Shown here one piece after another: positions 17,968 through 55,189 of a stretch of 64,000 nt of DNA. The notes below the pieces were generated by a model. It worked only from the letters and a program-made list of their open reading frames with translations. It was not told where the DNA came from and did no database searches. The number at the start of each line of letters is the position of its first letter. Within the stretch, counting starts at the first letter, position 1. The stretch comes from Tersicoccus phoenicis (lineage in GTDB: Bacteria > Actinomycetota > Actinomycetes > Actinomycetales > Micrococcaceae). Where the stretch lies: NCBI RefSeq assembly GCF_001968835.1, contig NZ_MRDE01000064.1, positions 62,001 through 126,000 on the forward strand. The letters are read 5' to 3'. The position numbers were made by a program, and so were the translations under genes.

Positions 17968-18354
17968 TCAGGCTGCGGTCGCCGGCGCCGACGTGTCGGC
18001 GGGCAGGGCATCCTTGGCGAGCGCGACGAGCGCGGTGAAGGCCGCCTCGTCGTTGACGGCCAGCTCGGCGAGCATCCGGCGGTCCACCTCGATCTCGGCC
18101 AGGCGCAGACCCTGGATGAACCGGTTGTAGGTGATGCCGTTCGCGCGAGCCGCGGCGTTGATGCGCTGGATCCACAGCCGGCGGAAGTCGCCCTTCCGCG
18201 CCCGGCGATCCCGGTAGCTGTAGGTGAACGACTTGGTGACCTGCTCCTTGGCCTTGCGGTACAGCCGCGACCGCTGACCGCGGTAGCCACTCGCCCGGTC
18301 CAGGGTCTCCCGGCGCTTCTTGTGGGCGTTGACCGCCCGCTTCACACGTGCCAC
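17968..18354 (-). CDS. rplT: 50S ribosomal protein L20
   Basis: 128 residues beginning [18 protein letters not shown], with the family core [21 protein letters not shown]. Early assembly protein of the large subunit; in Bacillus and E. coli L20 also represses its own operon. Third gene of infC-rpmI-rplT, 64 bp after rpmI. The C-terminus is slightly longer than usual, with an acidic/Ala tail. Confidence 0.98.
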
Positions 18355-18418: not shown

Positions 18419-18613
18419 CTACAGACCCAGCATCCGCTTGATGGTCTTGGTGTCCGCCGGGGACACGTCCTTGTCCATGGACAGACGGCGGGTCAGGGTG
18501 CTGGGCTTGCGCTCGAAGTTGTGGCGCATGCTGGACTGCTGGCGGCGCAGCTTGCCGCTGCCGGTGACCTTGAATCGCTTCTTGGCCCCGCTGTGAGTCT
18601 TCTGCTTCGGCAT
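18419..18613 (-). CDS. rpmI: 50S ribosomal protein L35
   Basis: 64 residues, [20 protein letters not shown]. Usual length and sequence. ATG at 18613 lies 109 bp after the infC stop. Middle gene of the infC operon. Confidence 0.98.
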
Positions 18614-18722: not shown

Positions 18723-19622
18723 TTACTTCCGTCCGCCGGGCTTGGGGCCCGGTTTCGGGGCCGATGGCCTGGGCGCCGACGGCTTCGGCGCGGCGGCGGG
18801 CTTGGAGGCCGCCGACGTCGGCGCCGCGGCGGGCTTCGACGTGGCAGTCTCGACGACAGGGCTCTCGACGGCCGGTGCCGCGGCAGCGGGTTCCGTCGCC
18901 TGCACCGCTGCGGGTGCCGACTCAGCCGTCGTGTCGACCGGGGTCGCCGTCGGCGCCGGCGCCGTCTCCACGGTCGCACCACCGCCGGCCGATCGCAGCG
19001 CGTCGCCGATGCTCTGGGTCATCGGCGCCTGCTCGCTCGTCTCCACCCGGCTATCGGCCCGGCTCTTCGACTCGCGGCGTTCCTCGCGCTGGGCGGCGCG
19101 GCGGGCGTCGGCCTTGTTCTTGAGCGGTCCGATGACCATCACCATGTTGCGTCCGTCGATCCGCGGCGTGGACTCGACGGAGCCGACCTCGGCGACGTCG
19201 GTCGCCAGCCGATCCAGCAGGCGGATGCCCATCTCGGGACGCTGCTGTTCCCGGCCGCGGAACTGGATCATGGCCTTGACCTTGTCGCCGGCACCGAGGA
19301 AGCGCAACGCGTGGCCGACCTTGGTGTCGTAGTCGTGCCGGTCGATCTTCAGCCGGAACCGGATCTCCTTGAGCACGGTGTTGGTCTGGTTCTTGCGCGC
19401 CTCGCGCGCCTTCACCGCAGCCTCGTACTTGTACTTGCCGAAATCCATCAGCTTCGCGACGGGCGGCTTGGCCTGCGGGGCGACCTCGACCAGATCGAGG
19501 TCGGACTCTGCGGCCAGTCGGAGGGCGTCCTCGATGCGGACGATGCCTACCTGCTCACCGGCAGGCCCGACGAGCCGCACCTCGGGGACGCGGATACGAT
19601 CATTGATTCGGGGATCGCTAAT
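18723..19622 (-). CDS. infC: Translation initiation factor IF-3 with long C-terminal tail; AUU start
   Basis: 299 residues. The IF3 N-domain ([18 protein letters not shown]), linker ([17 protein letters not shown]) and C-domain ([21 protein letters not shown], ending near [11 protein letters not shown]) occupy about 185 residues. The rest is a Lys/Arg stretch then an Ala/Pro/Thr/Lys-rich low-complexity tail of about 100 residues. The start is ATT at 19622: AGGAGC lies 6 nt upstream, the conserved sequence begins right after, and no ATG/GTG/TTG lies nearby in frame. A rare AUU start in infC is known in E. coli as the target of IF3 autoregulation. The leader contains an apparent attenuator. Confidence 0.93.
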
Positions 19623-19649
19623 CTGTTTGCTCCTGTAGTCGGTTGGCGA

Positions 19650-19670
19650 TTCACGCCGCGGGGGCGTGAA
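19650..19670 (-). promoter_or_regulatory. Hairpin just upstream of the infC ribosome site
   Basis: TTCACGCC and GGCGTGAA form an 8-bp stem with a 5-nt loop, ending about 12 nt before the AGGAGC site. It may influence translation initiation. Confidence 0.45.
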
Positions 19671-19683
19671 GACCCCACGCACA

Positions 19684-19720
19684 CGAAAAGCCTCCGTCTG
19701 CGCATGCACACGGAGGCTTC
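19684..19720 (-). terminator. infC leader attenuator (terminator hairpin)
   Basis: Read on the minus strand, GAAGCCTCCGT (19720-19710) pairs with ACGGAGGCTT (19697-19688) around a 12-nt loop and is followed by TTTT. An upstream copy CGGAGGCTTC (19885-19876) is perfectly complementary over 10 bases to the 5' arm and could replace the terminator stem. Confidence 0.62.
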
Positions 19721-19875
19721 GGAAGGAGCGGGAGGACCACGCGAGCGGGTCACGGACCGACGACGAGGACGCCGTGGAACGACGCCGCACCGCACGCCGG
19801 GTCCTTGATCCAAGGAGCCTGGTGCCCGACCGGAACCCGGCGGCCGCACTGTCGAACGGGCCGTCGCGGGTGGGA

Positions 19876-19914
19876 GAAGCCTCCGCTTGCAAACGGCCCG
19901 CTCAGGGCGGGCCG
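19876..19914 (-). promoter_or_regulatory. 5' end of infC leader: hairpin and antiterminator arm
   Basis: The predicted transcript begins near 19921, forms an 8-bp hairpin (CGGCCCGC loop GCGGGCCG, 19914-19894), and then carries CGGAGGCTTC at 19885-19876. This segment can pair with the 5' arm of the downstream terminator. Confidence 0.5.
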
Positions 19915-19927
19915 CTGGTCTGTGCCA

Positions 19928-19933
19928 AGCTTA
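19928..19933 (-). promoter_or_regulatory. Putative -10 of the infC operon
   Basis: TAAGCT on the minus strand, about 7 nt before the first leader hairpin. It gives a leader of about 300 nt (19623-19921) that contains no convincing gene. The -35 is weak and would overlap the start of the divergent gene. Confidence 0.4.
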
Positions 19934-19938
19934 CCATC

Positions 19939-20358
19939 ATGAGCTTTCCGGACCAGAATCCCACCCCGCCCGCACCGCACGACCACCACGACGCGCACGC
20001 CCACACCGGCGATGGGGCCGGTGATTCTGCTCAAGCGCAGCTGCGGGACATCGCCGAGGTCCCGGCGGTCGAGGTGATCACGACGGCCGCGGTGCACCTG
20101 ATGAGCGCGGCGGCGGTCAAGTGCGGGCTGGCCGACGGCGACGACGCGGCGTCGCTGACCGACCTGGACGAGGCGCGGAAACTGATCACTGCCCTGGCCG
20201 GGTTCGTCACCGCCGCCGCCCCGGAGATCGGCAGCCAGCACGCCGGCCCGTTGCGCGACGGTCTACGGTCGCTGCAACTGGCCTTCCGTGAGGCCTCGGC
20301 CATCCCGGACAAGCCCGGTCAGGGGCCGGGCGAGAAGTTCACCGGGCCGGTCAACTGA
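19939..20358 (+). CDS. DUF1844 domain protein
   Basis: 139 residues. After a His/Pro/Asp-rich N-terminus (PHDHHDAHAHTGDG) comes the DUF1844 core: VEVITTAAVHLMSAAAVKCGL and DLDEARKLITALAGFV. The domain is small, helical and of unknown function. It is commonly found divergent to infC in actinobacteria, as here. The His-rich start may bind metal (inference). ATG at 19939 lacks a ribosome site. Confidence 0.82.
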   Translation: MSFPDQNPTPPAPHDHHDAHAHTGDGAGDSAQAQLRDIAEVPAVEVITTAAVHLMSAAAVKCGLADGDDAASLTDLDEARKLITALAGFVTAAAPEIGSQHAGPLRDGLRSLQLAFREASAIPDKPGQGPGEKFTGPVN

Positions 20359-54994: not shown

Positions 54995-55189
54995 GAAGGA
55001 AAGTCACCTCCGTTTCTGTGATCGTGGCCGCGCCGCCGGCACACGCGGGAGTCCGCGCGTGTGGCACCCGGTCTTCGATCGAGATCCCCGGGGCTGATCC
55101 GCGTCGTGTGGACGCGGTGTGCCCGGAGATCACTACCGAGGACCGCAGCTGCCGTCCGGGAGCGCTGGCCGGGATGATTTCGGGTTCCC

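Follow-up and report, generated by a model that had tools for sequence, protein, structure and literature searches.

Computational evidence for a probable transcription attenuator in the infC-rpmI-rplT leader of Tersicoccus phoenicis and related Actinomycetes

The leader of the infC-rpmI-rplT operon of Tersicoccus phoenicis, located within the 64,000-nt stretch of DNA analysed here (the window), probably carries a cis-acting transcription attenuator; from comparative and folding models, we put the probability of this reading at about 0.65. In the predicted switch, one RNA segment close to the terminator is shared between two mutually exclusive partners, one in a conserved 5' domain and the other in the 3' side of the terminator. 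Conservation, covariation, exclusivity and folding order were obtained by computation; termination in the cell is inferred.

Results

Leader, operon and segments in the window

Read from the sequence, the minus-strand leader extends over about 300 nt, from a predicted transcription start near 19921 to the infC start codon ATT at 19622 (Table 1). At the site of the probable -10 element, the word TGNTAAGCTT recurs in many Micrococcaceae leaders (judged by eye and uncounted); a promoter scan and a terminator scan that needs five T in eight bases gave no match at the leader. The variable hairpin between the predicted start and the 5' domain, formed by GCGGCCCGC and GCGGGCCGT, has a sequence that by eye is unconserved across relatives. 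Arthrobacter leaders (L012 and others) display, also by eye, a second -10-like word, TAGAAT, directly 5' of GTTTGCAAG; this word is absent in the window, and its position suggests a start in these leaders that would place segment 1 near the 5' end of the RNA. On the opposite strand, an open reading frame at 19939-20358 (+), which we take to be DUF1844-like, has its ATG some 18 bp away from the predicted transcription start of infC, so that the promoters of infC and of this divergent frame would overlap.

Table 1. Features of the infC-rpmI-rplT leader and operon, in coordinates of the window
Feature	Position	Strand	Basis or remark
Probable -10 element, TGG-TAAGCT	19928..19933	-	Sequence; start near 19921 inferred
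Variable 5' hairpin, GCGGCCCGC..GCGGGCCGT	19892..19916	-	Partial-transcript folds, start assumed at 19922
5' sensor domain (AAGYGGAG, P0 hairpin, P2 stem)	19822..19893	-	Covariance model R1
Segment 1, CGGAGGCTTC	19876..19885	-	5' strand of antiterminator P1; overlaps P0
P0 hairpin, GGAG (19884-19881):CTCC (19876-19873)	19873..19884	-	Exclusive with P1
P2 stem, ACCCG (19871-19867):CGGGT (19839-19835), with inner GGCC:GGCC stem	19835..19871	-	
Segment 2, GAAGCCTCCG	19711..19720	-	Shared partner: 3' strand of P1 or 5' arm of terminator
Leader terminator hairpin	19686..19720	-	Segment 3 and U-tract at 19689-19686
Segment 3, CGGAGGCTTTT	19686..19696	-	3' side of terminator
P4, CATGCGCA (19706-19699):TGTGCGTG (19683-19676)	19676..19706	-	Alternative hairpin after read-through
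infC Shine-Dalgarno, AGGAG	19630..19634	-	Sequence
infC (IF3), ATT start	18723..19622	-	NCBIfam TIGR00168, 209.6 bits
rpmI (L35)	18419..18613	-	NCBIfam TIGR00001, 68.7 bits
rplT (L20)	17968..18354	-	NCBIfam TIGR01032, 143.9 bits

In 104 of the 105 first-round leaders, infC is succeeded by rpmI and rplT, with a cut contig as the exception, and among loci L116-L168 rpmI was found after infC in 40 of 40 and rplT in 39 of 40. The infC start codon is ATC (158) or ATT (65) in 223 of 224 distinct leaders, and this near-universality indicates that start-codon control of IF3 is probably present in the phylum too. The IF3 of the window carries an Ala/Pro-rich tail of about 120 residues past the 170-residue family core, and the matched length differs among relatives.

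The initial annotation had proposed that three leader segments form alternative pairings, and direct reading of the minus strand confirms all three at the positions assigned to them. Segments 1 and 2 join through 10 Watson-Crick pairs, whereas the hairpin of segments 2 and 3 comprises nine Watson-Crick pairs, one G-U pair and an extra apical stem, followed by UUUU, the four U being the whole of the U-tract in the window. When positions 19623-19933 were shuffled with dinucleotide content retained (n=3000), a comparable terminator arose in three sequences, and a comparable terminator together with the third segment in none; the native leader is also more stably folded than each of 100 shuffles (z -3.8). 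The genome contains 18 copies of the word CGGAGGCTT and the same number of its reversed control, so that the word itself is not special; three of the 18 copies are at the infC leader locus.

The conserved 5' domain and its distribution

In relatives, the 5' domain has a recurrent layout, in which AAG-Y-GGAG is followed by a short loop, the strip CUCCCACC and an ACCYG/CRGGU stem (P2) with an inner stem. P0 is formed by GGAG/CUCC, by GAAG/CUUC or by other paired variants. Across 99 aligned sequences, P0 and P2 cells are paired in 97.5% of cases compared to 93.3% after shuffling, in an alignment that is biased towards the structure, having been fitted to it; changes on both sides are seen in 7 of 12 pairs compared to 3.0 in shuffles, and sliding the partners against each other abolishes the signal. 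A GACC near the 5' end and a GGUC after P2 could form an extra helix that closes the 5' domain and excludes P1. The two words co-occur with P 2.7e-6 in 220 leaders, by a statistic that ignores relatedness and a rule that counts some GGTC internal to P2; the overlapping control words ACCG and CGAC also score (P ~0.001).

Loci with infC were collected from 80 named contigs (mostly Micrococcaceae, with other Micrococcales by title) and from 100 genomes of the same family, of which 30 loci were kept; since the two sets partly overlap, the resulting 109 loci do not stand for 109 independent genomes. The domain pattern lies upstream of infC in 106 of these 109 first-round loci, that is, in 76 of 79 from named contigs and in all 30 from the same family. 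The exceptions are two Nesterenkonia loci without the element (L044 and L046) and one locus, L062, that has the domain with a longer loop. Both Nesterenkonia loci keep the promoter-like word TAAGCTT where the sensor domain is missing. Left out were these two, L036, whose contig begins inside the gene, and the duplicates L091, L110, L111 and L118.

A covariance model built from infC upstream regions of relatives (R1; 27 sequences, including the window, whose own score is thus partly by construction) finds the infC leader in the genome of the window at 61.1 bits (E 7.7e-18), with the next-best place at 16.6 bits. In the class Actinomycetes, home of Streptomyces, Arthrobacter and the mycobacteria, R1 matches 157 of 196 genomes at E<=0.01 and gives no match in 39. 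All 24 new loci from this search (L145-L168) have the hit directly upstream of infC, as do 79 of 80 further regions, the latter chosen mostly among the stronger hits; at the level of genomes, infC is downstream of a hit in all 120 checked among the 157, those with the stronger hits. The AAG is placed 123 to 292 nt before the infC start (median 209) in the 224 distinct leaders. Of 60 genomes sampled in the class, a second model (R2), built from 99 sequences, matches 52; outside the class it matches 9 of 336, with infC downstream in four of these nine (L127, L275, L278 and L279) but not in the other five. Among 30 loci with weak hits across the phylum, 12 were not upstream of infC and were discarded as chance matches. 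Two names used below are labels of convenience, since leaders called Streptomyces-type (L128, L129, L131, L132, L241 and L242) owe the name to their match to the Rfam family Scr1601 alone, and calling leader family f6 mycobacteria-like is a guess.

Covariation, folding order and a second alternative hairpin

In 153 of the 224 distinct leaders, the domain is followed, ahead of infC, by a terminator, defined as a hairpin with a T-rich tract, compared to 6, 4 and 4 in three sets of shuffles; in the Micrococcaceae set it is present in 64 of 70. The figure of 153 is a low count, as the finder misses terminators that are visible by eye (L007, L017, L037, L041, L042 and L105). For the 153 terminator leaders, taken once per distinct segment 1 (84 sequences), segment 1 pairs with the 5' arm of its own terminator at -23.9 kcal/mol, compared to -19.0 (sd 0.35) when arms are permuted, a value that 0 of 20000 permutations reached; the permutations ignore relatedness. 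The arm is also the best downstream partner of segment 1 in 109 of 137 leaders, compared to 43.5 expected with a shuffled segment 1. This set comprises 137 of the 153 leaders, those being dropped in which the arm did not fit the stretch or the leader was repeated. In the other 28 leaders, the best partner lies elsewhere, and these include eight of Arthrobacter type with a mismatch in P1; P1 is likewise weak in the mycobacteria-like leaders.

In a fixed register of 117 distinct pairs, the two strands of P1 change in step at positions -3, -2, -1, +3, +8, +9 and +10 relative to AAG. The AAG itself is invariant and the GGAG nearly so, so that covariation is slight or absent at these positions of P1; of the two A in AAG, the first is paired in just 70 and the second in 60 of the 117 leaders. 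We suggest from this pattern that the core of P1 is probably held constant by P0 and by whatever binds there, while the flanks covary.

Folding of the window leader, based on single-strand thermodynamic predictions at 37 C, gives the order expected of a switch. In transcripts that end before segment 3, segments 1 and 2 are paired with a probability of 0.999 (assuming a start at 19922); once segment 3 is present, the pairing of segments 2 and 3 reaches a probability of 0.95 and is the more stable by 11 kcal/mol (-129.8 compared to -118.4). An antiterminator that forms first and a terminator that forms later but is more stable is the order predicted for a classical attenuator. The attenuator logic put forward in the initial annotation is supported on both counts, as the segments turn out to be conserved and covarying in relatives, a comparison on which that proposal was to stand or fall, and the predicted folding order is the one it implied.

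A further hairpin, P4, uses the loop and the apical 3' arm of the terminator as its 5' side and finds its partner just after the U-tract; it is compatible with P1 and exclusive with the terminator. For 116 distinct loops, with relatedness kept, cognate P4 pairing averages -11.9 compared to -9.55 kcal for permuted partners (sd 0.22, 0 of 10000). The signal is strong in Micrococcaceae (41 loops, -12.7 compared to -9.2) and less so elsewhere (75 loops, -11.5 compared to -10.3). These folding models would fit a role for P4 as a lock on the read-through form.

Leaders without a terminator

Among 33 Microbacteriaceae-type leaders, chosen by eye, P1 pairing is preserved (-14.8 compared to -12.5 permuted, sd 0.40, 0 of 10000). 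Pairing of the Shine-Dalgarno sequence is at -17.7 in the same leaders compared to -16.8 permuted (sd 0.46), a value reached by 353 of 10000 permutations, and the partner of segment 1 overlaps that of the Shine-Dalgarno sequence in 18 of 33, compared to 12.0 (sd 2.6) with a shuffled stretch. These sequence comparisons are only suggestive of translational control through sequestration of the Shine-Dalgarno sequence.

Discussion

The data suggest the following course of events. Segment 1 would be made first as RNA polymerase leaves the promoter and, by default, would pair with segment 2 to form the antiterminator before segment 3 exists, giving a tendency to read on; P4 could subsequently capture the loop of the terminator and lock read-through in place. 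Were P0 and P2 instead to keep the 5' domain closed, segment 1 would be unavailable, segment 2 would pair with segment 3 and transcription would stop near 19685. The closed domain is presumably stabilised by an excess of an operon product, which would yield feedback repression as in Bacillus subtilis.

The ligand is most likely L20, an assignment by analogy that falls a little short of an even bet: it is our best guess because of the operon content and the precedents in Escherichia coli and B. subtilis. Molecular mimicry lends it no support, given that we saw no convincing similarity between the leader and the L20 site of 23S rRNA. R1 had no match at E<=10 in six actinobacterial 23S loci. At one of these loci (L251), the CUCCCACC strip was not found, AAGTGGAG, CTCCCACC and TCCCACCC are absent, and AAGCGGAG occurs twice, about 500 bases before, and thus away from, the presumed L20-site strand. 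An invariant AA and G-C pairs do occur in the leader, but they are not enough to establish a likeness to the two consecutive G-C pairs and AA dimer of the L20 site; the hallmarks of L20 leaders named in the available text of PMC7247131 are too small for a decision and may be present. We therefore regard L20-site mimicry as unsupported. The lack of a convincing resemblance also speaks for a signal other than L20, and IF3, L35 or free 30S subunits could drive the very same attenuator, which we consider rather unlikely. The GGAG of segment 1 is nearly invariant and Shine-Dalgarno-like, so that it could meet the 3' end of 16S rRNA, and AAG and GGAG are kept beyond what P1 needs; however, GGAG is required for P0 as well. 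For IF3 in particular, the near-universal ATC or ATT start of infC is suggestive, as a non-AUG start (AUU or AUC) is a feature of the autoregulation of E. coli IF3. Against these candidates, L20 is the established regulator of the infC-rpmI-rplT operon in both E. coli and B. subtilis, according to the available text of PMC10931766. A translated leader, which the initial annotation had listed among the possible signals, is disfavoured: ribosome-mediated attenuation of the trp or whiB7 kind, in which a leader peptide is translated, has been proposed for actinobacterial leaders (whiB7 in the accessible part of PMC4128351), yet no conserved upstream frame preceded by a Shine-Dalgarno sequence exists among the 224 leaders. 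Frames of at least four codons with such a sequence and a start codon occur in 77 of the 224 compared to 64.2 in shuffles, with no conserved position, and the window leader has none; a start codon 4-12 nt past the GGAG of segment 1 is found in just one of 224. We consider this mechanism very improbable.

Two further explanations were weighed. The hairpin could act as a constant partial terminator, free of regulation, which would merely determine how much of the operon is expressed at the basal level and would work without a ligand, but neither a conserved and covarying third segment that destroys the terminator nor a structured 5' domain is needed for that, and we think this improbable. To a similar degree we doubt that the element is an independent trans-acting small RNA that lies upstream of infC by chance. 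This is how Rfam files Scr1601 (RF02830, type "Gene; sRNA"), which was found as an expressed noncoding RNA (available text of PMC8388888). In the loci checked, however, it is on the same strand as infC and directly upstream of it, its alternative pairing is built around a terminator, and the scr1601 homologue of Streptomyces ambofaciens is located in a UTR (same source). From the alignments, Scr1601 appears to be the stopped product of the infC leader switch, and it may have an additional role in trans.

The relation between this small RNA and the leader can be followed in the Streptomyces-type loci. The Rfam model scores 153-176 bits in 6 of 10 loci given to it (gathering score 100). Its hits share with the infC leader the position upstream of infC, the strand and the AAGYGGAG/CUCCCACC domain, and in the alignments of L128, L129, L241 and L242 the last bases of the model are the U-tract of the infC terminator. 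The differences are that Scr1601 is filed as a small RNA gene and that its Rfam consensus structure lacks the P1 antiterminator. Since the model has no match at E<=10 in the window leader and gave two weak matches in 20 other leaders (23.9 and 23.0 bits), we base the homology between the window leader and Scr1601 on the shared 5' domain and position and not on the Rfam model. Expression of scr1601 was confirmed in Streptomyces coelicolor (PMC8388888, in the part available). In the main text of PMC3765725, which does not name scr1601, 12 earlier Streptomyces small RNAs resemble highly expressed 5' UTRs, and in Streptomyces clavuligerus the available account of term-seq data counts attenuation in ribosomal-protein leaders among the known premature transcripts (PMC8269248); either set may include the infC leader.

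The statement in the initial annotation that no such actinobacterial element had been described holds for the attenuator itself within the open-licence literature searched: an actinobacterial infC attenuator was not found in the available text of PMC11109978, PMC4128351, PMC2965389, PMC13236596 and PMC8079986. It does not hold for the RNA, whose Streptomyces homologue is in Rfam as Scr1601, nor for the long leader of Mycobacterium tuberculosis infC, which had already been noted as over-represented relative to its gene: the available text of PMC3207917 gives a 326-nt 5' UTR with a UTR/CDS signal ratio of 2.6 in exponential and 4.9 in stationary phase. As far as our searches of that literature go, what is new is the distribution across the class, the covariation of the antiterminator, P4 and the interpretation of Scr1601 as a terminated leader. 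The same source on M. tuberculosis points out a similarity between the infA and infC UTRs (PMC3207917, in the part available). A second copy of the element upstream of infA was considered and rejected, as the three hits of R1 in eight infA loci were weak and failed to convince: L258 (16.2 bits) had its hit on the other strand from infA, that of L259 (14.0 bits) was partial and some 700 bases upstream, and L256 reached 5.5 bits.

More tentatively, the findings can be drawn together into a regulatory RNA class that would span Actinomycetes and some neighbouring classes. Here, one sensor domain that recognises its signal in a way of its own, and not by mimicking the L20 site, would control IF3, L35 and L20; most lineages would use a terminator for this and Microbacteriaceae probably the ribosome-binding site, with Scr1601 as the terminated product and the infC 5' UTR of M. 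tuberculosis as the mycobacterial form. We regard this wider picture as possible, short of a balanced wager. If it is true, actinobacteria have a way of their own to balance IF3, L35 and L20, with a scaffold that differs from those described for Firmicutes and Proteobacteria, and a single sensor may act on transcription in one lineage and on translation in another. On the same condition, an Rfam small RNA becomes a leader with a predicted function, for which segments 1, 2 and 3, P0 and P4 are the points to test.

The L20 leader of B. subtilis regulates the same operon by transcription attenuation through alternative structures (available text of PMC6097659 and PMC10931766); it differs in being narrowly confined to Firmicutes, and its terminator is stabilised by L20 (PMC6097659). 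The leaders described here share with the L20_leader type the alternative terminator and antiterminator folds, in our case in silico. In E. coli, the same proteins are encoded and infC has a non-AUG start, which is near-universal here as ATC or ATT; control by L20 is translational there and leaves infC unaffected (PMC10931766, available text). A deltaproteobacterial L20 r-leader candidate reported by Eckert and Weinberg (2020; PMC7247131, available text) indicates that L20 scaffolds vary between phyla; infC is absent from the main text of that article, and none of the L20 places that it shows is actinobacterial. Our own Rfam searches returned no L20_leader match in the window leader (501-base stretch, E<=10) or in 30 other leader loci (E<=1), the accession of this family being presumably RF00558, and no riboswitch, T-box or other Rfam family at the window leader, either at the gathering threshold or at E<=10. 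The sole Rfam match above the gathering score in the window is an Actino-pnp RNA (RF01688) at 55067-55147 (-), with 55.6 bits.
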